Source: Pseudomonadota bacterium | Lineage (GTDB): Bacteria > Myxococcota_A > UBA796 > GCA-2862545 | Direction of reading: 5' to 3' | DNA length: 64,000 nt | Assembly: GCA_005776945.1 (NCBI GenBank) | Contig: SXOB01000036.1 | Location: forward strand, 1 to 64,000 | Shown: positions 10,178 through 60,191 of the stretch, in pieces | Numbering within the stretch: position 1 is the first letter of the stretch | How the letters are laid out: each line of letters opens with the position of its first letter | Position numbers and translations under genes: made by a program | Notes under the pieces: model-generated | What the model was told of the DNA's origin: nothing | Databases searched by the model: none | What the model saw: only the letters and a program-made list of their open reading frames with translations

Positions 10178-13100
10178 TCAGGGTTTGTAGACGACGGCCG
10201 CGCGACGCGTCGTTGCGATCCCGTTGGCAACGGTCTCGACGGCCAGAACATACACGCCAGCCGCCGACGGGGTGAAGGAGACGCTTGCCGTGGCTGCGCC
10301 GGTCAAGAATGGGGGCGGGCCCGCCGCCGCAGGCGTTCGGAGCCAGGTCCACGACCAAGAAATGGGGGCGCCGTCCGCGTGGACCGACCCGGACGCGTTG
10401 AGGGTCACGGGTCCTGGCACGGTGGAGAGGGTGACGCCTGCCAACGTCCAACTCAAACCATGGTCGTCAGGGTCGGTCGGGTCGCTGGTCTCGAGGCCGT
10501 CGCCGACGCCGTCCCCGTCGGTGTCCAGGCGGTCTGGGCGCGTGCCGGCGAGCCACTCCTCCCCGCGATTGAGACCGTCGCCGTCAGCGTCTTCGCCGGT
10601 ATCGTCCAAGTTGGGGTCGCCACCGGTAGCCGTCTCCCAGGCGTCGGGGAGGCCATCGGCATCGACGTCGTGGATCGCAAGGTCGATGGGGCTTTCCCAT
10701 GCGCCGCCGAGCACGCCAAGGTCGGGCTGGGACCCGTCGGCATCCGCGCCATTGGCAAATCCGGCGTCCCGGAACTCCGCGGCGGCTGGGCGCTCGACGG
10801 CGACCGCGACGTCGTCGAGCCGGTCGTCGCCGAGAACCCAGGTCGCGATCCCTGCGGCATCGCCGAGGCGAAGACCATCGCCCACGTCGATCGCGGTCGC
10901 GTCGTTGGCATCGAACCAAACGGCCCACGCGCCAAAGGTCGTCGGGTCGACGATCTCGTCGTCGGGATTCCAGTCCTCGGCGCGAAACAGGGCGCGGCCC
11001 GCCGTGTCGCGGACGGCGACGTCGACCAAGTGAATCACGCCGCCCTCAGACCAGAATGGCGCGTCACCCCACGAGCGTTCGATGAGGCCGTTGCGTACGA
11101 CGAGGGCGGCGACCTCGCTGTCGCTGGATTGGGCCAGGACGGCACCCTCGCGGCCGTGGTTGCCGATCGCACGCAGCCCGTGGATCGCTCGGGGGGTAGT
11201 CGTCGGAACGGGCTCGACCGCGAGGAGGACGCCGCCTTCGTCCACGGCGCCGTCCCCTACGCTGGTCCAGCCGACGACGTCGATGGAGGCCGCGTCGATC
11301 CAGGCGGCACCGCCGTTGTTCGCGTAGTTGTGCTCGGTGTGCAAGTTGCGGGCGACGAAGCTCGTTCCCGCAAAGGCAAGCGCGCCGCCCTTCTCCAGAC
11401 AGCCGTTGTCGACCATGGCGACGTCCACGAGCGTCAGCGCGGTGGCAAGCCGCGCGTCGATGGCGCCGCCTCGGGTCGCCTGGCCGCGGGTCAATGTGAG
11501 ATGACCTAGGACGACGTCGTCCGCGGCGCCCGTGAGAACGACGCTGGCTGCCTCCTGGGCATCCAGGACGACGTCGGAGACCTGCGATCCGAGGCCGATC
11601 AAGGCGATGTTGCGACCGGCGAGGTCGAGCGTTGCAGGCCACAGGCCCGGGCGGATGCCGACCGCTTCGCCGGGCACGGCGAGGTCGAGCGCCTCCGCTA
11701 CCGTGCTCGCGTCGTCGGGCACGAGGACGCCATCGTAGACGAGGACATCGGCGGCGTCGGTGACCGTGGACGCCCCGTCTGAGGCCGTCAGCGTCAACGT
11801 GTAGGTCCCGGCCACGTCGGGCACGAAGCGCGGGTCGGCGGGGTCGTCGAGTGCGGCGATGGACGACGCCGAAGGAGCGTCGATCGACCACGCGACCGTC
11901 ACGGCCAGCCCATCCGGGTCCAAGGCCGATGCGTCGGGGATGGCGACCTCCGCGTGGACGACCCCAAGGCGATCGGCGCCGGCAAATGCGGCGACGGCAT
12001 GGTCGCGTGCGTCAAGCGGGTCCGTCCCGAGATCGACCTCCTCACCGTCGGAAACGCCGTCGGCGTCGGAGTCTGCGTTGTTCGAGTCGGTTCGGTTCAG
12101 CGCTTCCTCCGATGCCAAGAGGCCGTCGCCATCGGCGTCGGCGTCGGCGTCCGGAGTCGCGGGATCAAATCCCAAGAAGGACTCATGGGCGTCATTGAAG
12201 CCGTCTCCGTCCCCATCCGCGGCGAAGGCGCCGGCGCTCCACGGCCATGCGTAAGGCCCCCCGTGTGCGCCGACGTCGGCGGGGGTCCCGTCTAGGTCGA
12301 GCACGAGGGGATCGCCGGCGTCTACGAGCGGGCTCGTCGGCCACAAGCGAAGGTCGCTGTCGGACGGGGAGAGTGGGTTCTCGGCGAGGAATTCGGGGCG
12401 CCAAGCGTGCAGGATGTCCGAACGGAATCCGCTGGCGTCGTCCCAGTCGTCAGAATCGAGGACCCAGACGCGCTTGGCGTCGAACCCGTCGCCGAGGTCG
12501 GCCACGTCGAACCAGGGCCCACTGCCGGTGCCGCCCGCGAAAGCGAAATCGACGAGCACCGTGGACGAGATCCCGCCTGGCGGATCGTCGTCGGCCGAGG
12601 CGTCGGCGCTGAGCACCTGCTGCCCTTCGGCGTCGGAGCCGGCGGCTGGGCCGTTGCCCCAAGCCGTCGCAAACTTCACGGTGGCGTGCGACGGCCGGTC
12701 GCCGTCGGCGACCGTGGACCTCCGCGTGTGGAGTACGGCGCCGACGTTCGCGATGTTGCCGACGAAGATTGCGTTGCTGAGGTCCAGCGAGGATCCGGAC
12801 ACGGTAATGGCCGCGCCGGTGGGCGCCTCGTTGGCAGCAAAGGTGAGCCGCGTGCCGTTCAATGAGGTCCCGGGGCCGACCCACAAGCCGCCGCCGTTGA
12901 CAGTGGCGTCGTTGTCGGCCAAAACGACGTCTTGTAGAACTGCAGCGCCGACCTCGACTGCGATGCCGGCGCCTTGTTTCGCTGAGTTGCCCGAGACGCA
13001 GAGATCGGTGGCAACGACGTCACCGAGGATGTGCAGGCCACCGCCGACCTCGAGATCGCCACCGCCGATGCCGCCGCTCAGCGTGAGCCCTGTGACGGCG

Positions 13101-14056
13101 CCGCGGTCCGCTGTGAGGCTGGGCCCGGACGCGCCCACGAGCGTCGTGAATGCGCACCCCTCGCCGGCGAGGGTGACGTCGTAGCCGCTGATGTCAAAGG
13201 GCCCGAGGAACCAGCCTTCGTCGAATTGGACGACCGCACCCGGCGGCGCGGCGGCCAAAGCGTCATCGAGGGTCGCGAACGGAACAGGGATACCGAACTC
13301 GTCGACGAAGCCGTCGCAGTCTTGGTCCAGACCGTCCGAAGGCAGGTCCTCGGCATGGGGGCCCACGGCGGGGTCCTGGTCGTCGCAGTCTCGGTCGTTC
13401 GACGCCAGGCCCGGCGCGTGGCCACACCCGAAGGCGACGGCGCCGGGCGCCCCGTAGCCATCCCCGTCGGCGTCTTCGAAGAGCGGCTCCGCCGGTGCTC
13501 CTTCGTCGATCAGGCCGTTGCAGTCGTTGTCCACGCCGTCGCACACCTCGGTGCGGCCCGTCCAGGCGAGGGGTTCGGCGTCGTCGCAGTCGTCGCCGAG
13601 CGACGACCAACCGGGGGACTCTGTGCAGCCGGGTCCCGGCCGAAGGGGGTCGCCGTGTTGGTCTCCATCGAGGTCCTCGAACAGCTCACCGAGCACGCCT
13701 TCGTCAGTTTCGCCATTGCAATCGTTGTCGAGACCGTCACAGGTCTCTCCAAGGCCCGGCGCGATGCGAGCGTCGACGTCGTTGCAATCCCCGCCGAGCG
13801 GAGACCCGTCCGGCGGAAGCGTACAGACGCGGCGCGCGAACTCGTCGGCGCCGAACCCGTCACCGTCGACGTCGAGGAATGCCGTGATGGACACGCCCTC
13901 GTCGATCTGCCCGTTGCAGTCGTCGTCGAGGCCGTTGCACGACTCGGGCGCGGAGGGGGAAATCGCTGGATCCTCGGGCGCGCAGTCGCGTCCGTTGCGA
14001 GTGCCGTCTCCGTCGTGATCGGAGCAGGCCAGCCATGCGGCGAGGACCGTGATCAT
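10178..14056 (-). CDS. giant lipoprotein: MopE motifs, two beta-helix blocks, TSP3 repeats and Ig/PKD-like domains
   Basis: A 1292-residue predicted lipoprotein. The start is the ATG at 14056, which overlaps the stop of the phosphoesterase gene (ATGA) and gives MITVLAAWLAC. Domain order: ~12-190, five MopE-type motifs (D-C-x-x-x-D-P ... C-x-G-L-D-D-D-C-N-G-x-I-D-E-G); ~200-540, right-handed beta-helix ending SPLVDAGDPL and DVGAHGGP; ~555-620, thrombospondin-3-like Asp repeats (DADGDGLLASEEALNR); ~620-690, a PKD/Ig-like domain (GTYTLTLTASDG); ~695-1040, a second beta-helix; ~1110-1190, more Asp repeats (DADGLPDAWE, DTDGDGVGDG); ~1190-1292, a final PKD-like domain. It probably sits on the outer surface. 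The MopE name comes from a copper-binding Methylococcus protein; metal binding here is inferred only. No enzymatic motif is seen. Confidence 0.8.
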   Translation of the reverse strand: MITVLAAWLACSDHDGDGTRNGRDCAPEDPAISPSAPESCNGLDDDCNGQIDEGVSITAFLDVDGDGFGADEFARRVCTLPPDGSPLGGDCNDVDARIAPGLGETCDGLDNDCNGETDEGVLGELFEDLDGDQHGDPLRPGPGCTESPGWSSLGDDCDDAEPLAWTGRTEVCDGVDNDCNGLIDEGAPAEPLFEDADGDGYGAPGAVAFGCGHAPGLASNDRDCDDQDPAVGPHAEDLPSDGLDQDCDGFVDEFGIPVPFATLDDALAAAPPGAVVQFDEGWFLGPFDISGYDVTLAGEGCAFTTLVGASGPSLTADRGAVTGLTLSGGIGGGDLEVGGGLHILGDVVATDLCVSGNSAKQGAGIAVEVGAAVLQDVVLADNDATVNGGGLWVGPGTSLNGTRLTFAANEAPTGAAITVSGSSLDLSNAIFVGNIANVGAVLHTRRSTVADGDRPSHATVKFATAWGNGPAAGSDAEGQQVLSADASADDDPPGGISSTVLVDFAFAGGTGSGPWFDVADLGDGFDAKRVWVLDSDDWDDASGFRSDILHAWRPEFLAENPLSPSDSDLRLWPTSPLVDAGDPLVLDLDGTPADVGAHGGPYAWPWSAGAFAADGDGDGFNDAHESFLGFDPATPDADADADGDGLLASEEALNRTDSNNADSDADGVSDGEEVDLGTDPLDARDHAVAAFAGADRLGVVHAEVAIPDASALDPDGLAVTVAWSIDAPSASSIAALDDPADPRFVPDVAGTYTLTLTASDGASTVTDAADVLVYDGVLVPDDASTVAEALDLAVPGEAVGIRPGLWPATLDLAGRNIALIGLGSQVSDVVLDAQEAASVVLTGAADDVVLGHLTLTRGQATRGGAIDARLATALTLVDVAMVDNGCLEKGGALAFAGTSFVARNLHTEHNYANNGGAAWIDAASIDVVGWTSVGDGAVDEGGVLLAVEPVPTTTPRAIHGLRAIGNHGREGAVLAQSSDSEVAALVVRNGLIERSWGDAPFWSEGGVIHLVDVAVRDTAGRALFRAEDWNPDDEIVDPTTFGAWAVWFDANDATAIDVGDGLRLGDAAGIATWVLGDDRLDDVAVAVERPAAAEFRDAGFANGADADGSQPDLGVLGGAWESPIDLAIHDVDADGLPDAWETATGGDPNLDDTGEDADGDGLNRGEEWLAGTRPDRLDTDGDGVGDGLETSDPTDPDDHGLSWTLAGVTLSTVPGPVTLNASGSVHADGAPISWSWTWLRTPAAAGPPPFLTGAATASVSFTPSAAGVYVLAVETVANGIATTRRAAVVYKP

Positions 14057-50711: not shown

Positions 50712-51515
50712 TCAACTAACCCTGCGACTTCGCAAGAGCAGTTCGGCCACTTCGGCGAAGCCTCGGCCGCCTCGCGAAGGGGCGATGAAGCGCGGCGCCA
50801 CGGACATTCGGTCCAGAAAATCGGCGACATTGGCGACACCGAAAGACGCATCGACAAGCGAGAAAAGCGGTTCGTCATTCGCGGAATCGCCGACGAAGGC
50901 CCAAGCGGCGGGGTCGAGGTCTTCGTCCCAGCGCTCGCGAACGAGATCGCGAACGCCAGACCGCTTGTCGAAGTCGCCAAACCAGCCGTTGACGTGGATC
51001 GAACTCACCTTACATGTGGCGCCGATGGCCTGGAAAGAAGCGACGATGGCGTCGACGGAGGCCTGAGACAGTCGCGGCACGTCCTCGCACCAATCGATGG
51101 CGAGGTCCAGCGCGCGGAAGGGCTGGTCGCTCGCAAGGGCAGCACCAGGAACGCGAGCAAGGATGTCGGCGGCAGCGTCATCGAGCCGAGCGCGGTTGGC
51201 GCGCCGCGTCTCCGACGGCTGGGCGAAGCGGTGGACCATTCGGCCGTCGGCTCCGACCCACGCCCAGAGTCCCCCGTTTTCGCCGACCACCGCGTCGACG
51301 GGCCAAGTTCGCGCGATGCAATCTACCCAGCCGATGGGGCGGCCTGTGACCGGCACGATGCGGAACCCGGCCTCGCGTAGGGCTGCGAGGGCCGCGAACG
51401 CTTCAGGGACGAGGCGCCCGCCCTCCGTCAACGTGTCGTCGATGTCTGTGAAGACCCCCTGCAGGTGCGGCCAGTCGGACGGACGGGCCGCATGAAGTGG
51501 CAGGGGTTTCACCAC
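50712..51515 (-). CDS. HAD-superfamily hydrolase, Cof / mannosyl-3-phosphoglycerate phosphatase type
   Basis: A 267-residue cytoplasmic phosphatase of HAD subfamily [15 protein letters not shown] (residues ~22-33) is motif I with the nucleophile Asp. [10 protein letters not shown] is motif [12 protein letters not shown] supplies the motif III Lys, and [25 protein letters not shown] is motif IV. ENGGLW and the alpha/beta cap between motifs II and III are as in Cof and mannosyl-3-phosphoglycerate phosphatases. The N-terminal ~18 residues ([15 protein letters not shown]) may be shorter in reality. The GTG start at 51515 overlaps the stop of the preceding giant lipoprotein gene by 7 bp. The substrate is a sugar or cofactor phosphate, not deducible. 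Confidence 0.85.
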
Positions 51516-54500
51516 GCTGGGGTGACCGCCGTGGGTACGAACGTCTGCACTTCGCCGGGGACCGCGTCGACGGCGTCACCTGGGGCGCCGATCAACACTT
51601 GGTCGCCGTGGAGGTCCACCGCGGCCCCGAAGGTGGGCGACGACGACACCGTGAACTGGGCCACGCCGATCACAGAGAGGTCCGTGCCCCCCCAGGGGAA
51701 GACGCCGTCGGGGTCGGAGTAAAAGCGCGACGAGAACCAGCCCGTCGGGTCCGTGGCCTCCGTGGCCGTGATGACGCCGGTGCAGCTGGCATCCGTGGCG
51801 TAGGTTCCGATGGGCTTGAAGCGAACGATGAGGCCGCCGCCGGCGAAGTTGAAGGTGTTGGTGACCTCCCACGCCAGTTCGTAGTCCTTCGAGATGCCGT
51901 TTCCGCGAGGGACCGCGGGCTTGCCGATGGCGAGCGTCGTGAAGCCTGCGACGTCTGGCTCTGCCGACCCGCTGAATTTCGCGGAGGCGAACGCAACTTC
52001 CATGTTGATGTCGACGTCGTTGACCGCCCAAAGGTCCCAGGCGATCACGTCGCCCGGGCGCAGGTCGAAGGCGGGCTGATTCTTGTAGACGAAGCCCATG
52101 TAGTCGCCGAACGTCGAGCCATCGCCGAATGGGATGCAGTTGCTCGCGGACGCGCTGGTGGGGCCGACGATGGTGAGCACGTCGGTTGGCAGCGTGCTGC
52201 TGCCAAGGACCCAGGCCGCCTCCACCCAATTTCCGACATCGGCAAACACGTGGGCAGACGACTCCTCGCCGGGGCTGCCAGCCACGATCCGCCCGCCCTC
52301 GAACGCGACGGAGGCCGGGAAACCCTCGGTGGGCTCATGAAGGGTCAGCGTGGCGTCGAGAGTCCACGTGGCCCCGTCCGTGGACCAGACCTCCGCGTTC
52401 CCGCTTCCAGGGGCAGCGACGACCAATCGGTCGCCGTGGATGGCAACGTCGGTTCCGTAGGTCCGGGCCGGTTCGTGGGCGCCGAGGCAGGTCATCGTGT
52501 CCGTCGCGGCGTCGATGACACAGGCTGCGCCGTCGCCCCCGGCCGCGCCCGCGACCGCAAAGTCGCCGGTCGCGTCGATCGACGCGCCCAACGCGGACGC
52601 ATCGACGTCGAGTACTTCCTCATCGAAGACAGCGTCGAGCGCCCACGTGGCGCCGTTGTCGACGTATTTGTAAACGCGTCCGGCGTCGGGGTCGGCGCTG
52701 TCGTCGCCGGGGGCACCCACCCACAAGGTGTCGTCGGAGCCGAATGCGACCGCGGCTCCAAACGCGTCGCCGAGGTCGCCCGCGTCGGACAGAACGGCCA
52801 TTTGAATCCAATTCAGGCCATCGTCTTCGTAGATGAAGACCCTGCCGCCGTCATCGCCACCGGGGGCACCGATCGCGATGAGCGTGCCCACCGTGTCGAC
52901 CGCTGCGCCGAATTCGTCCGCGGCGGTTTGCGTTGCATCCGACACCAAGGCCTCGGCGGCCCATACGCCCGCGCCGAGGTCGCGGTAAACCAGGGCCCCC
53001 CCGTGGAGGGTCGATCCACCGTCGGGAACGCCGACGACGAGGACGTCGGCTGCAGTCGCCATCGCCGACCCGAAGCCGATGTCGGTTGGATCGAGGTGGA
53101 AGCTTTCGAGTTCGATGAGCGTGGCGCCGATGCCGTCGCCGTCGATCGTGCACTCATTCAGCGGGTCGTCCCAGTCCACGAGGCCGTCGCAGTTTTCGTC
53201 GACGAGATTGCACATCTCCGTCGCGTCCGGGTTCACCATCGCGTCCGTGTCGTCGCAGTCGTCGGCGTTGCTCACAAGGTCGGGTGCAGGAGCGAGGCAG
53301 GCGACGACGATCGAAGGTTCGGCGCCGTACCCGTCGCCGTCGGTGTCGGCGTACCAGTCGACCAGGGCGCCGCCGATGCCACCGTCGGCATCGTCACAGT
53401 CGTCGTCGTTGTCGACGTACCCGACGGGTTGGGAACACGCCTCGGTCGATACGGCCGGGTCGCCCCAGCCGTCGCCGTCCGCGTCGAGGTACCACAGGGG
53501 GGCGGTGCTGAGGTCGACGCTTGGATCGCTGCCGTCGCGCAGCGCGTCGCAGTCGTTGTCGACCCCGTCGCACACTTCGGTGGCGAGCGGGCTGATGTCG
53601 GGGTTGGCGTCGTCACAATCCAGCTTGTTGCCGGCCGTGCCGGGGTCGCCGACGCAGGCCCAGGCGCCTGGCAAGCTGTAGTCGCCAAAGGTGTCGCCGT
53701 CGGCGTCCACGTAGAACTTGGTCAGCGTGGTGGCGTCGAGGTCCAGGTCGTCCAGGTCCGTCAACCCGTTGCAGTCGTCGTCAAGGCCGTTGCAAACCTC
53801 GAGCGCGTCGGGGTGGACCGCGGCGTCGTTGTCGTCGCAGTCGTCGCCGCCGTGGGTCTCGTTGAGGTACCCGTCGAGGTCGGCGTCGCAGCTGGCGGCA
53901 CATTCGGGATCGACGCAATCGACGAGATCGTCGGCATCGTTGTCCGCGAAGTCGAGGCAGTCCTCGTCGCAAGCGACCTCACATTGGGGGTCGTTGCAAT
54001 CCGCGAAGCCGTCGAGGTCGTTGTCGCGGCCATCGGCACAGTCTTCTGGGCAAAGGCCGTCGCAGTCCTCGTCGTCGCAGTCGACGGCGGCATCGGCATC
54101 GTTGTCGCGGCCGTCCGTACACAATTCGGCGCAACTTTCGACGTTGCAGTCGGGGTCGGAGCAATCGATGGCGCCGTCGGCATCGTTGTCTCGGGTGTCC
54201 GTGCAGTCCTCGGGGCAGTCGGGTGTCCGACAGTCGGTGTCCGCACAGTCGGTGAGGAGGTCACCATCGTTGTCTCGGCCGTCGCCACACGCATCGGCCT
54301 CCGGGCATGAACCATCGCACGCCTCGTCGAGGCAGTCGATCGCGCCGTTGCCGTCGTCGTCGAGGTCGTTGCCACAAATCTCCGGACAGGAGCCAGCGCA
54401 GTCGTCGTCGACGCAATCGACCAGGCCGTCCCCATCGTCATCGGCGCCGTTGGTGCAGATTTCGGCGTCGACCGCCGACCCGTCCGAGGTGTCGACCTCA

Positions 54501-54538
54501 CCACAGGCGAGCAGGGTCCAGGTGAGCAGGGCAGTCAT
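51509..54538 (-). CDS. giant lipoprotein of a tandem paralogue family (third copy in transcript order)
   Basis: A 1009-residue predicted lipoprotein starting at the ATG at 54538 with a GGGAGG ribosome site; the leader is MTALLTWTLLAC. Residues 27-218 hold seven ~27-residue repeats of pattern C-x2-G-x-D-x-D-x-D-G-x2-D-C-x-D-x2-C-x3-C. Residues ~219-463 hold five MopE-type units with D-A-D-G-D-x-F/W-G segments. ~465-790 is an FG-GAP-like propeller (FGSAMATAADVLVVGVP, FGAAVDTVGTLIAIGAPGG, LGASIDATGDFAVAGA). ~795-960 is a module beginning SNCIPFGDG, with PAFDLRPGDVIAWDL and GGGLIVRFKP. A final blade (FGAAVDLHGDQVLIGAPGD) and the terminus PTAVTPAW follow. The two upstream genes encode the same architecture. 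Surface display and Ca or other metal binding are likely; its function is unknown. Confidence 0.82.
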   Translation of the reverse strand: MTALLTWTLLACGEVDTSDGSAVDAEICTNGADDDGDGLVDCVDDDCAGSCPEICGNDLDDDGNGAIDCLDEACDGSCPEADACGDGRDNDGDLLTDCADTDCRTPDCPEDCTDTRDNDADGAIDCSDPDCNVESCAELCTDGRDNDADAAVDCDDEDCDGLCPEDCADGRDNDLDGFADCNDPQCEVACDEDCLDFADNDADDLVDCVDPECAASCDADLDGYLNETHGGDDCDDNDAAVHPDALEVCNGLDDDCNGLTDLDDLDLDATTLTKFYVDADGDTFGDYSLPGAWACVGDPGTAGNKLDCDDANPDISPLATEVCDGVDNDCDALRDGSDPSVDLSTAPLWYLDADGDGWGDPAVSTEACSQPVGYVDNDDDCDDADGGIGGALVDWYADTDGDGYGAEPSIVVACLAPAPDLVSNADDCDDTDAMVNPDATEMCNLVDENCDGLVDWDDPLNECTIDGDGIGATLIELESFHLDPTDIGFGSAMATAADVLVVGVPDGGSTLHGGALVYRDLGAGVWAAEALVSDATQTAADEFGAAVDTVGTLIAIGAPGGDDGGRVFIYEDDGLNWIQMAVLSDAGDLGDAFGAAVAFGSDDTLWVGAPGDDSADPDAGRVYKYVDNGATWALDAVFDEEVLDVDASALGASIDATGDFAVAGAAGGDGAACVIDAATDTMTCLGAHEPARTYGTDVAIHGDRLVVAAPGSGNAEVWSTDGATWTLDATLTLHEPTEGFPASVAFEGGRIVAGSPGEESSAHVFADVGNWVEAAWVLGSSTLPTDVLTIVGPTSASASNCIPFGDGSTFGDYMGFVYKNQPAFDLRPGDVIAWDLWAVNDVDINMEVAFASAKFSGSAEPDVAGFTTLAIGKPAVPRGNGISKDYELAWEVTNTFNFAGGGLIVRFKPIGTYATDASCTGVITATEATDPTGWFSSRFYSDPDGVFPWGGTDLSVIGVAQFTVSSSPTFGAAVDLHGDQVLIGAPGDAVDAVPGEVQTFVPTAVTPAW
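53885..54460 (-). repeat. seven Cys/Asp 27-mer coding repeats
   Basis: Seven units encoding residues 27-218, each about 81 bp and rich in GTC/GTCG on the plus strand. Every unit has four Cys (some spaced by one extra residue) and the D-x-D-x-D-G loop typical of EF-hand or dockerin calcium sites, followed by D-C-x-D. Same unit type as in the two upstream paralogues, but one more copy. Confidence 0.8.
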
Positions 54539-54571
54539 GGCGCCTCCCAGAGGGGTTGTATCGCGGGGCGA

Positions 54572-57325
54572 TCACCAAATGGGCCACGTCGCCGCCGTGC
54601 AGATTTGGACGGCGCCGGGTGGTGGGTCGGGGATCTCGGCGGCGGGTGCGCCGATGGCGAGGCGGGGTCCGTTGAGCGCCAGCGCGGTGCCAGAGCGCTC
54701 GGTGCGGTCGGCCAGCACGATGCGCAGGTCGGGGATCCGCGTGGCGTCCTGTTGGTCCCAAGGCGGCAGGCCATCCGCGTCGGCCCAAACCCGGGCCACC
54801 GGACCGGTGCCATCCGCGTCGCGAACGACGAAGACGCCGCTGCAGGTCAGGTCGGCCGCGAAATCCCCGGTTGGCGTGAGGCGAACGATGAGGCCACCAC
54901 CCGGGAAGTGAAAAGGCACGTCCACCGGGAAGGCGAGGTCGAAGTCGCCGGTGACGAAGTTCCCGACGCCGGCGCTCGCAGCCAAGGCCACGGGGACGAA
55001 ACCGCCTTCGTCGGGTTCGTCGGCGCCGTCGACAATGGCGACGGCCAGCGCAATGTCGGCCTCCAACGCGTGGTCGTTCGGCGCGGTCGCGTCGAAAGCC
55101 AACTGGTCGCCCGGCAACAGGTCGAAGGCCGGAACGCCCTCGTAGATGAGGGCAAGGTGCGGGCCGTGGCCACCGCCTCCGAGCGGGATGCAGTTGGCGA
55201 CGGGTGCACCGCCTTCCAACTCGCTGAGGTGGACGTCGCTGGGCTCTGAACCAAGGAGGGTGGCGCGAAGCAGGCCCGAGGCGTCGAGGACCTGCACAGA
55301 TCCGGTCGCGGGGTCCCCGACGGCGAAGCGGTCGGCGTTCATCGAGAGAGATGTCGCCGGCGTCGACAACTCGCCGTCCGACGCGCCCGTCCACCAAACG
55401 GCGGTTCCATCGGTTGCCGCCCAGGTTTCGGCGTCGGTGGCGAGGGCGGTGGTGGGACGGTCGTCCAGCCAAGTCGAGGTGCCGTCGAGTTGCAGCTGCG
55501 CGAGGCCATCGGGTCCACCCGCGAGGACGTTGTCACCCCAGGCCCCGAGGGCGACCGACGACGTGGTGAAGCGGGGCCCGGCGACGGCGGCGTCCTCGCC
55601 GAGAATCCAGCTGGCGACGCCGTCATCCACCGTCGACCATACGGCGCCCCCCGAGAGTGCAACAGCCCCGCCTGCGCCGGCGTCGGAGAGGACGACGACG
55701 AGGTCCAGCGACGGCCTCGCGTAGACGTAGACCTCGTCGACGCCGGGAGCGCCGACGGCGAGCCAATCGGCGTCGGCCGCGAGCGAGGCCCCAAAGGCGT
55801 CGGACCTCTCCCGGTCGCCCGCTTCGAGAACGACGCCGTCGAGCCAGGCGCCTTCGGGCGTCGCATCGAAGGTCCACACGGCGCCCGCGCTGCCCCACGG
55901 GTCGTCGGGAGCGCCGACGGCGATCCAATCCCCGACGAGCACCAGGCTGCGACCGAAGGTGTGTTCACCGGGCTGTGGGCGGAAGGGCGCCAGGGACTGG
56001 CACGTGAGGTCGGGGTCGCCGACGAGGTCGTAGCTGCAGTCGAGATCGGGATCGGCGTCGTCGATCAGGCCGTCGCAGTCGTCGTCGATCTGGTTGCACG
56101 CCTCTAGGCGACCGGGGAGGCGGCTGGCGTCCGCGTCGTCGCAATCGTCGGCATTGTGCACGGTGTCGTCGCTGGGGGGAACGCACCCGACGCCCAACGC
56201 GGGGCCGGCCCCCGCGCCGTCGCCGTCGCCGTCGGCGTGCCAAGACGCCGAGGGGCTGCCAACGGCCGCGTCGTCGTCGTCGCAGTCGTCGTTCGTGGCC
56301 GAGAAGTCCAACCACGGGTCGCAGTCGTCGTGGAAGGCTGCGCTGCCGCCGACGCCGTCGCCGTCACTGTCGAACCACCAACGTGGAACGACGGTGTCGG
56401 GGTCCTCCTCATCGATCAAGTGGTCGCAGTCTTCGTCCCACGTGCCGTCGCAGACCTCCGCCGCGCCCGGATGGATGGTGGGATTGTGGTCTGCGCAGTC
56501 GCCAAGTTGGTCGACGCCCAAGGGCGGGGATTCGCAGCTGACGCGTTGAACGGCCTCTCGCCCCCAGCCGTCGCCGTCGGTGTCGCGGTGCCACGTGATC
56601 AGCGTTGTCGCGTCGAGGAACGGGTCGTCGTCCTCCGTCAGGCCGTCGCAGTCCTCGTCGACGTTGTCGGAGTCGCAGCGTTCGGGCAAACCAGGGTGGA
56701 TTTGGGGGTCGTCGTCGCGGCAGTCGTCGCCGCCGGCCGCCAACGCGTCGTGGCCGTCGCCGTCGGCATCGCACTGGCTGCGACATTCGCCGTCGAGACA
56801 GTCGACCAGGCCGTCGGCGTCGTCGTCCAGGCCGTTGGAGCAGATCTCGGCGCAGCCGACCTCGCAGGAGGGGTCACTGCAGTCGATGAGCCCGTCGCCA
56901 TCTTCGTCGAGGCCGCCGTCGCACAGCTCTTCGCATGAGCCGATGCAGTCGGGGTCCGCGCAGTCGATGAGGCCGTCGTCGTCGTCGTCGCGCCCACCGA
57001 TGCAGAGCTCGGGACAGGCTGTGCCCCCACATTCGGGGTCGGCGCAGTCCACAAGGCCGTCGAGGTCGTCGTCCCAGCCGTTTTCGCAGACCTCGGGGCA
57101 GGCGCCCGCACAGTCCCGGTCGTCGCAATCGACAGTGCCGTCTCGGTCCTCGTCCACACCCCCGTCACAGGCCTCGGGGCAGGTGCAGATGGGGTCCAGG
57201 CAGTCGGGCAGGCCGTTGCCGTCCTCGTCGCCGGGCAGGGCGCACAATTCCACGGGCGCGATGTCGAACCCGTCTGTCGGCGTCGCGGAAGGCCCAACGC
57301 ACGCGAGTGCCAAGGCGATCACCAT
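54572..57325 (-). CDS. giant lipoprotein of a tandem paralogue family (second copy in transcript order)
   Basis: A 917-residue predicted lipoprotein. It starts either at the ATG at 57325 (MVIALALAC) or at the GTG at 57322 (MIALALAC), which overlaps the preceding stop as GTGA; both leaders lack basic residues. Residues 28-185 contain six Cys/Asp repeats. ~186-445 hold MopE-like units with W-H-R/A-D-x-D-G-D-G segments. ~455-700 form the FG-GAP-like propeller ([37 protein letters not shown]). ~705-870 hold the shared module, starting ANCIPLGGG, with [15 protein letters not shown] and [10 protein letters not shown]. It ends with a last blade ([15 protein letters not shown]) and the terminus AATWPIW. 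The next paralogue starts 33 bp downstream. No enzymatic motif. Confidence 0.82.
56771..57244 (-). repeat. six Cys/Asp 27-mer coding repeats
   Basis: Six units encoding residues 28-185 of the second paralogue, again with four Cys per unit in most copies and the D-x-D-x-D-G loop; the first copy is degenerate ([11 protein letters not shown]). Confidence 0.8.
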
Positions 57326-60180
57326 GGGGACAGCGGCGTCGGAACGAGTAGCGTCGCGTGGCCGGGGGGCGGCGGCGGAACCCAGTCGCCGGGGGAGGCG
57401 GGTTCTGGCGTGGGCGAGCCGGGGGCGCCAACCAGGAGGGCGTCGTCGGCCAGTGCGAGGGCGGCGCCGAAACCCGGCCGCCGGGTGGTGAGGAACTGAA
57501 CCTCGGGAATGGAGACAGCGCTGGTGACGTTCCAGGGCCAGTCCCCGTCGTACTCGTAGAGCGTTCGCGCCACGAAGTGGCCGCTGGGGTCGGTCGCCGA
57601 GGCGCCCTCGAGGTTGGGGGTGCAGGTCTCGTCGTTGGCGTACCCCAGGCGCGGCGTGAGTTGGAGCACGAGGCCACCGCCCGAGAACGAGAACGGCTCC
57701 TCCACGATGAACGCGAGCTCGAAGTTCCCGCGGATGTCGTCACCGCGGGGAGCCGTTGCGCGGGCGGCTGTGGCCACGGTGACAAGGGGGCCCGCAGGTT
57801 CGTCCGTCCCATCCTCGACCGTCCCGGCCAGAGCGATGTCGACGATGATGTCGACGTCGTTGGGCGCCATCAGATCGAACGCGATCACGTCGCCGGGCAG
57901 GAGGTCGAAGGCCGGGACTCCGGCCCAAACGGCGCCCATATGGTCGCCTCCCCCGTCGCCGAGACCGAAGGGCTCGCAGACGACCCCCGGGGACGGGTCT
58001 GACGCGGCCAACACCTCCGTGGCGGCACTGGCTGTGGCGCCTCTCGGAGCGACCTGAGCGACGAGGAGCCAACCATCGTTCAGGGGCGCGTAGAGCAGGA
58101 CCTCTCCCGCTGCCGACGGGGCGCCGACGGCGAGCCGATTGCCCGTTCCCGCGAGGGTCGCGCCGAATTCGGCCGGGGCGTGCGGGGGCACGAGATCCAC
58201 GGCCAAGCCGACGTCCGGCAGCCATCGGACGAGCCCGGCGCCGGGGGCGCCCACGGCCGTGCCGGCCAGGGCGCGCGCCACGGCTCGCCCGAAGTCCGCG
58301 CCGGCTTCGCCCAAGGTCAGCGTCGGCGGGTTGGCGTCGTCGAGCCAAAGCGCCACGGCGTCGCTGGCGCCTGCGGCAACGATGCCGGCCCCGTCGACGG
58401 CCACGCTCCGTCCCAACGAGGCGACGGGGACCTCCGGGGCGGGGAGGTGCTCAGTCGTCCAGGCGCCTGGCGCGCCTTGGATCGCGACGGCCACGGCCCC
58501 CGCGCCATCGAATGCGGAGGGAGCACCGAGCGCGACGAAGCCGCCGGTTGCGGCCAGAGCATGGCCCCAATCCGCAGTCTCGTCAGGCAGCGTCAGGTCG
58601 GTAAGCGGCTCGGCGGAGGGTAGGGCGAAGCGGGCGACGCGCGGGATGTCGGGTTCCCCGACCCAGAGTTCACCTGCCAGGAGGGCCACCGAGGTGCCGA
58701 AGCTCGGGCCGCCGGCGAGGACGATGGGGTCGGATTCCGGCGATCTCGACGCCCAAAGCCACACGAGGCCGGTGCCGTCGGACACGGCCATCGCGTCGGC
58801 CGCGACCGCGACCGCGGAGCCGAAGAGGAGGCTGCCCGACGGGTCCACCACGTCGAACAGGTCCGCAAAGTCGTTCGTGTCGCCCCACACGCATTCGGCG
58901 TCTTCGTCGGCCAAATCGACGGCGTCGTCGCAATCGTCGTCGACGCCGTTGCAGGATTCCGTGGCTGTCGGGGCGATCGCAGGGTCGTCGTCGTCGCAGT
59001 CGCCGTTCAGGAAGGCCGTCGGCACGCCGGGCGCATCGCAGCCCTCGGCGAGGACAGCGTCGCCGAACCCGTCCCCGTCGGTGTCGGCATACCAAAACAG
59101 CGGAAAGCCAGCGTTCGCGTCGGAATCGTCGCAGTCCAGCGCGTTGTCCACGGTGTCGGCGAGGGCATCGCATGCCAGCGTCTGCGCGTTGGGGTCACCC
59201 CAGCCGTCGCCGTCGCCATCGGCGTACCAGGTTCTCAGGGTCGACAGGTCGAAGTCCGGGTCGGCCTCGTCGAGGAGGTGGTCGCAGTCCTCGTCCCAGC
59301 CCTCGGTCGTGCAGCGCTCCCCGGCACCGGGAAACGTGGTGGCGTCGTGGTCGGCGCAATCCAAGTCGTTGTCGACGGTCCGGTCGGCGCCGGTGCACGC
59401 GATCAGGCTGGCGAGCCCGCGGCCGAAGCCGTCGCCGTCCCAGTCGGGGTACCAGGTGCGCATGGACGCCACGAGGGTGTCCGGGTCGGCATCGTCGATG
59501 AGGCCGTCGCAGTCGTCATCGATGCCGCCGCAGGTCTCTGGCGCGTCGGAGTGGACGGCGGCGTTGCGGTCGTCGCAGTCGTCGCCGCCGAAGAGGGCAC
59601 TGGTCTCGCCGTCGCCGTCCACGTCACAGGTCGCCGCGCACTCGAGGTCGTCGCAGTCGACGTCGCCGTCGGCGTCGTCGTCCGTGTCGTTGGCACATTG
59701 CTCGCTGCACACGGGCTCGCAGTCCGGATCTTCGCAGTCCACGGCGCCGTCTCCGTCGCCGTCCAAGCCGTCGGAACACACCTCGCTACACTGCCCGAGG
59801 CAGTCGGGGTCCTCGCAATCCACGAGGTTGTCGCCGTCGTCGTCGCGTCCGCCCGTGCACCGCTCGGGGCATTCGGGTCGGGCACAGTCGGGGTCGTCGC
59901 AGTCGATGAGGCGGTCGCCGTCCTGGTCGGCGCCGTCGTCGCAGTCTTCAGGGCAGGCTGCCCCGGTGCAATCGGCGTCGCGGCAGTCGACGTCGCCGTC
60001 TCCGTCGTCGTCGCGTCCATTGTCACACCGCTCGGGGCATTGTCCGTCGCAATCGGGGTCGTCGCAGTCGACGAGCCCGTCGCCGTCCTCGTCGACGGTT
60101 CCCGCACACGCTTCGGTTGGCGCCTCGTGGGGGACGGGCGAAGGGGCGATGGGCTCGCTGCACGCGATCACCCACCACAT
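57319..60180 (-). CDS. giant lipoprotein of a tandem paralogue family (first copy in transcript order)
   Basis: A 953-residue predicted lipoprotein and the first gene of the 18.6-kb minus-strand run. The ATG at 60180 has a strong GGAGGTG site 4 nt upstream, and an in-frame TGA two codons before it, so the leader is fixed as MWWVIAC: only six residues before the lipobox Cys, without charge. A Pro/Glu linker follows. Residues 25-185 are six Cys/Asp repeats, ~186-470 five MopE-like units (W-Y-A/P-D-x-D-G-D-G), and ~475-735 an FG-GAP-like propeller ([35 protein letters not shown]). ~738-900 hold the shared module ([34 protein letters not shown]). The last blade ([19 protein letters not shown]) ends in PTPLSPW. 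Its stop overlaps the next paralogue. Confidence 0.83.
59626..60108 (-). repeat. six Cys/Asp 27-mer coding repeats
   Basis: Six units encoding residues 25-185 of the first paralogue, with the clearest consensus: C-D-x-G-x-D-D-D-G-D-G-x-V-D-C-x-D-P-D-C-x-x-x-C-P-E. They join directly to the MopE-type units. Confidence 0.8.
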
Positions 60181-60191
60181 GGCTCACCTCC
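60181..60191 (-). promoter_or_regulatory. ribosome binding site and upstream in-frame stop fixing the start at 60180
   Basis: On the minus strand GGAGGTG (60191-60185) is followed by AGCC and then ATG. The codon two positions before the ATG in the same frame is TGA (60186-60184), partly inside the Shine-Dalgarno sequence. No longer N-terminus is therefore possible for the first tandem lipoprotein. Confidence 0.8.

Follow-up and report, generated by a model that had tools for sequence, protein, structure and literature searches.

Our analysis revealed that three adjacent genes of a draft bacterial genome encode large lipoprotein-like proteins of one architecture, named P3, P2 and P1. Their leaders probably belong to a second class of lipoprotein signal that the order uses beside the ordinary one, with 6–11 residues, no charged n-region and, most often, L-L-A-C at the end. 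The triplet would be exported by this class of signal. We hold it about evenly balanced whether P1–P3 are surface lipoproteins that carry an integrin-like head on a stalk, leave the cell by means of the ultra-short leaders, and act in adhesion or recognition with differing specificity.

The genes lie in a 64-kb window, the whole stretch of DNA that was analysed, which comes from a 3.88-Mb draft genome of 92 contigs (G000). P3, P2 and P1 are co-directional adjacent ORFs on the minus strand (Table 1). They align end to end with 42–45% identity by the aligner's count and 39–42% in a second alignment. The three share one domain order: a leader with a lipobox Cys, acidic double-disulfide repeats, MopE units, FG-GAP_2-like blades, a module of about 180 residues, a last blade and a terminal Trp. 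These results confirm the claim of an earlier note on this DNA that three adjacent lipoprotein-like genes have the same architecture. Within the window, the C-terminal module was found in these three ORFs only. The same note described the genes as translationally coupled. Coupling by overlap applies to P3 and P2, which share 7 nt; P2 and P1 are separated by a 33-nt gap, P1 having its own Shine-Dalgarno site.

The overlap of P1 with the following HAD-type hydrolase gene, whose product is probably a cytoplasmic phosphatase, reads GTGGTGA; we do not claim that this overlap is conserved, since a stop closes that frame early in the sister species (G001). A terminal Trp is present in all six proteins of the two species, so the residue pointed out earlier is a real shared trait. 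Its codon lies within the overlap with the next start in P3 and P1 and not in P2; since the P2 Trp is outside any overlap in this genome, an origin of the residue as a by-product of gene overlap was rejected.

Table 1. Features of the P3-P2-P1 cluster, in positions of the 64-kb window
Feature	Position	Strand	Description and basis
P3	57319..60180	-	953 aa, first cluster gene; ORF; PF11617 and NF033662 over cut-off
P3 Shine-Dalgarno site GGAGGTGA	60184..60191	-	Perfect; direct sequence reading
P3 leader MWWVIA before Cys7	60163..60180	-	ORF translation; stop-to-Cys distance 7
Inserted module of P3	57469..58014	-	Module limits, alignment
P3 end / P2 start overlap, ATGGTGA	57319..57325	-	7 nt; sequence; identical in sister species G001
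P2	54572..57325	-	917 aa, second gene; ORF; PF11617, PF14312 and NF033662 over cut-off
P2 leader MVIALALA before Cys9	57302..57325	-	ORF translation; start and overlap same in sister species
Inserted module of P2	54692..55234	-	Module limits, alignment
P1	51509..54538	-	1009 aa, third gene; ORF; PF11617, PF14312 and NF033662 over cut-off
P1 leader MTALLTWTLLA before Cys12	54506..54538	-	ORF translation
P1 stalk of acidic double-disulfide repeats	53891..54466 (approximate)	-	NF033662
P1 MopE units	53129..53890 (approximate)	-	PF11617
P1 propeller blades 1-6	52184..53128 (approximate)	-	PF14312; AlphaFold strand order
Inserted beta-sandwich module of P1	51629..52180	-	Module limits, alignment, model
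P1 seventh blade and terminal Trp	51512..51628	-	ORF, model, six-protein alignment
HAD-type hydrolase gene, overlaps P1 end	50712..51515	-	PF08282; adjoins P1 in G001 too

The six or seven Cys/Asp-rich 27-mers described earlier are present in P1–P3 and correspond to a named family, NF033662 (acid_disulf_rpt), with 45.2, 51.0 and 47.3 bits in the three proteins against a curated NCBI cut-off of 41. The MopE-like units are PF11617 (81.1, 61.2 and 53 bits; Pfam gathering score 27), which Pfam names as a putative metal-binding motif. General knowledge of the family suggests that these units probably bind Ca2+. The family name implies copper binding, for which a name by itself is no evidence. The whole genome contains at least 150 MopE matches, and 14 control genomes contain none. 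With repeats over the curated cut-offs, P1–P3 resemble the NF033662/PF11617 stalk proteins of myxobacteria-like genomes, from which they differ by the propeller head and the unnamed inserted module; other stalk proteins of this genome carry, for example, a C-type lectin. Elsewhere in this genome, acidic double-disulfide and MopE proteins with different ends are encoded at L045:1409-3121 (+), L044:4996-7419 (-) and L008:664-1911 (+). The first of these has a C-type lectin at the end of its MopE and acidic-repeat stalk, and a 9-residue leader. A 1292-aa protein at positions 10181-14056 (-) of the window combines MopE, PKD and bacterial TSP3 repeats behind the short leader MITVLAAWLAC.

The blades of the FG-GAP-like propeller proposed earlier correspond to PF14312 (FG-GAP_2), which matches P1 (55.3 bits) and P2 (28.5 bits) over the gathering score of 23; P3, at 11.7 bits, is below the cut-off yet aligns with P1 and P2 along the propeller. 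Structure modelling, which the earlier note had suggested, also gave a propeller for the P1 head, at modest confidence. The AlphaFold model of the C-terminal half of P1, made from three sequences, has a pLDDT of 58.6 and a pTM of 0.60, with the inserted module mostly below 50, and consists of six blades of four strands each, then the module, then a last blade with three clear strands. In a Foldseek search with this model, integrin alpha heads ranked first (E ~1e-9, TM-scores near 0.4), which supports the kind of fold and not its details. The model thus points, with modest confidence, to a seven-bladed integrin-alpha-like propeller with a beta-sandwich between blades 6 and 7. The likeness to the integrin alpha headpieces in the PDB consists of the seven predicted blades, the top Foldseek rank and, in P1 and P2, blades that score above the FG-GAP_2 cut-off, and is a resemblance of fold alone. 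In contrast to the P1 beta-sandwich, the integrin alpha-I domain lies between blades 2 and 3, and P1–P3 are predicted bacterial lipoproteins on an acidic stalk.

Comparison of the inserted module with Pfam, NCBIfam and PDB sequences gave no convincing family match, in agreement with its earlier description as a conserved module of unknown family. The NCBIfam family choice_anch_J matched one of nine members with an E-value of 0.035, and the PDB sequence matches were two antibody chains and a lysin domain; these were considered unconvincing. Modelled alone, the module is all-beta (pLDDT 61, pTM 0.68), and Foldseek found weak matches to jelly-roll folds and carbohydrate-binding modules, the best with an E-value of 0.004. 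Across the module alignment, two Cys residues are nearly invariant and may be joined by a disulfide.

A profile of the C-terminal region matched 5 of 94 genomes. Three copies of the module are present in each of G000 and G001, both species of the genus, and one in each of G026, G030 and G060, which belong to another family of the order. The single copies are homologous to the P1 module (43–52% identity); unlike in P1–P3, they follow a signal peptide close to the N-terminus of a MopE protein that has no propeller. The tandem arrangement, which the earlier note proposed to seek in relatives, was thus found within the genus, in G001 at least as P3-P2, while outside the genus the module is single and in a different architecture. 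These comparisons suggest that the tandem triplet is a genus-level feature, as far as is known, and that the module, which outside the genus takes up the opposite end of another kind of protein, is mobile between architectures. A scan of an 84,980-species collection used two short peptide patterns only, so that relatives can be missed, and returned one relative, L018, the same protein as that of G060 and counted with it as one genome. A nine-sequence module profile gave one further distant match in the phylum (E 5.5e-12; 379 genomes) and two further marginal ones, of which one, in a polysaccharide-export-like frame, is probably due to chance.

In G001, one contig carries genes for a sulfatase and an abhydrolase together with P3 and P2, and a second carries P1 and the HAD gene; the flanks match. 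P3 and P2 overlap by the same ATGGTGA in the two species, and the start position of P2 is identical. P1 probably does not directly follow P2 in G001, where a contig break lies between them, and something has probably been inserted there (contig ends L019:11583-12163 and L020:1-2440). A divergent ORF, L020:1637-2437, is located ahead of P1 on its contig. Integron attC sites were suspected by eye at these contig ends and dropped, since no such inverted repeat was found. The suggestion that the genes have been kept together therefore stands at least for P3 and P2, with the same overlap and flanks. In the tree of the six proteins, the P1 orthologues pair at 100 and the P2 orthologues at 99, which leaves the two P3 copies together. 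Since orthologues group across species, the triplication predates the species split, in agreement with the proposal that the genes are old duplicates; all three paralogues have orthologues in G001.

The domains differ in conservation. The stalk is the most conserved (50–61% identity between the paralogues of one genome, 52–72% between orthologues), the module is intermediate (38–43% and 42–59%), and blades 1–6 are the least conserved main domain (26–27% and 28–39%). Low conservation of blades 1–6 beside high conservation of the stalk is the pattern expected of heads that diversify while their carrier is conserved. The fast divergence of the propeller fits, without proving, a set of three binders that differ in specificity; a relaxation of constraint, instead of new specificity, could also be behind it.

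We favor the following model of P1–P3. A rigid, acidic, disulfide-braced stalk, formed by the acidic double-disulfide repeats and then the MopE units, would keep the head off the membrane. The head, a predicted seven-bladed FG-GAP propeller with the beta-sandwich between blades 6 and 7, would bind ligands, either carbohydrate or protein, and the three copies, with specificities that differ, would serve in adhesion or recognition. Surface exposure and ligand binding are suggested here by general knowledge of the families. The C-type lectin on a MopE and acidic-repeat stalk in the same genome, with its own short leader, argues for a head on a stalk. The description of the triplet as an undescribed surface system was not supported, as it is built for the most part from repeat families already known and the analysis identified no dedicated partner gene. 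What the triplet adds to the known bacterial stalk proteins is a predicted integrin-like head into which an undescribed domain is inserted, and the three old paralogues provide a natural test of head specificity.

A rather unlikely alternative is that P1–P3 are structural or metal-binding envelope proteins, in which the stalk would bind Ca2+ or Cu and the propeller would pack the surface or matrix without specific ligands. The abundance of MopE matches in the genome suggests that such acidic repeats are general envelope material here, and the naming of MopE as a putative metal-binding motif agrees with this. However, the propeller and module are kept as a unit in 6/6 proteins of the two species, which filler would not need, and the head differs from the ends of the other stalk proteins. 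We give still less weight to a quite improbable reading in which the heads capture substrate within a local unit for the processing or degradation of sugars, formed together with the neighboring sulfatase, abhydrolase and HAD hydrolase. The sulfatase and abhydrolase genes by P3 and the HAD gene by P1 are all kept in G001, and the module weakly resembles carbohydrate-binding modules. In contrast, the opposite strand encodes the sulfatase and abhydrolase, the HAD protein is probably cytoplasmic, and synteny within a genus is expected anyway.

The leaders of P3, P2 and P1 comprise 6, 8 and 11 residues, about half the usual length, and contain no Lys or Arg. Ala precedes the Cys in all three (VIAC in P3, ALAC in P2, LLAC in P1), as the Ala/Gly/Ser rule demands, and position -2 is Leu in P2 and P1 and Ile in P3. 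In a published lipoproteome of Bacillales, the mean position of the Cys is 21.4 ± 2.7, and the G+LPPv3 motif requires Arg or Lys (PMC13068155); from the motif as printed there, we derived position 13 as the earliest for the Cys. P1–P3 fall outside a rule of this type (Lys or Arg in the n-region, Cys at about position 13 or later). They share with the canonical Sec/SPII signal peptide a hydrophobic stretch, a small residue before the Cys and a genome that encodes both LspA and Lgt, and differ from it in having the Cys at positions 7, 9 and 12 and no Lys or Arg. One LspA homologue (L113), with the usual motifs, and three Lgt homologues (L114, L115, L116) are encoded in G000. The leaders are shorter than any published lipoprotein rule considered here permits, and the lipidation of P1–P3 is therefore not certain.

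The minimal leader noticed earlier is real in P1–P3, and was understated, as it is one case of a class of very short lipoprotein leaders that extends through the genome. In a survey by our own heuristic, covering 464 kb of G000 and including a few candidates that are clearly chance, the 41 candidate lipoproteins had a median leader of 9 residues, and 28/41 had leaders of 11 or fewer; several thresholds were tried, and the median of G000 was always 9–10 where computed. The median was 13 in G001 (n=29; 14/29 with 11 residues or fewer) and 9 in G028, of another family of the order (n=37), where two groups are visible. Samples from genomes other than these three were small (n=1–11): two genomes of the same family had medians of 15 and 16 (n=11 each), and the distant G077 had a median of 27 (n=9). 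Leaders of 6–11 residues recur in G000 (L037-L056 and the window), G028 (L102-L106 and L117-L126, alongside a group of ordinary length) and G001 (L077-L096); examples are MWLWLAC, MWWILALAC and MLLLLLAC. The proteins that carry short leaders include sulfatases, a phospholipase D-like protein, a metallophosphoesterase and the C-type lectin protein.

Homologous DUF1585 proteins with differing leaders show the shortening: the leader has 9 residues in G000, and reads MSPLLWVLAC in G001, MIWLLLAC in G028 and MVRRGWCVGVLALGLAAC in G023. A bulky residue occupies position -2 in 55/68 short leaders and 46/94 long ones. Lys or Arg is present in 5/68 short and 85/94 long leaders, a contrast that is partly built in, because the search rule excludes charged residues from the seven positions ahead of the Cys.

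It is very unlikely that wrong start sites, errors of assembly or chance have produced the leaders and that they hide true signals of ordinary length. In favor of this reading, the start codons are predicted, the genome is a draft, and in many candidates the frame stays open further upstream than the start that was chosen. Against it, the ATG of P3 has a perfect Shine-Dalgarno site and an in-frame TGA stop whose end lies one codon ahead of it, the start of P2 is pinned down by an overlap that both species share, 13 short leaders from three genomes have an in-frame stop no more than 14 residues away from the Cys, Cys is enriched 8.7-fold over background at the lipobox position behind Shine-Dalgarno-supported ATG starts of G000 while no other residue exceeds 1, and the same procedure found no leader under 16 residues in the outgroup G077.

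The second signal class that we propose would consist of Met, 5–10 mostly hydrophobic residues and the lipobox Cys, with no charged n-region, and the ordinary Lgt and LspA would act on it, lipidating P1–P3. The hydrophobic stretch alone would be the export signal, presumably through Sec. At the membrane, a leader of 6–9 residues could reach as an extended strand, and as a helix presumably could not. If this is true, the assumed minimum for export and processing by signal peptidase II is lowered, and many lipoproteins of this little-known order escape motif-based searches and are badly under-annotated. Provided that the short leaders function as lipoprotein signals, the three-part signal peptide of the textbooks, with its charged n-region, hydrophobic h-region and cleavage region, is not the minimum. 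A limited literature search found no description of such short lipoprotein signals, a weak indication of novelty.

A survey of type I signals gave just 2–6 cases per genome, some of them 11–13 residues long. The single-module MopE protein of G060 (L018:9413-12124, plus strand) begins with VSILLLLSAAHA, a type I-like signal that is very short, and has a C-terminal hydrophobic segment followed by Arg, which resembles a sorting tail.
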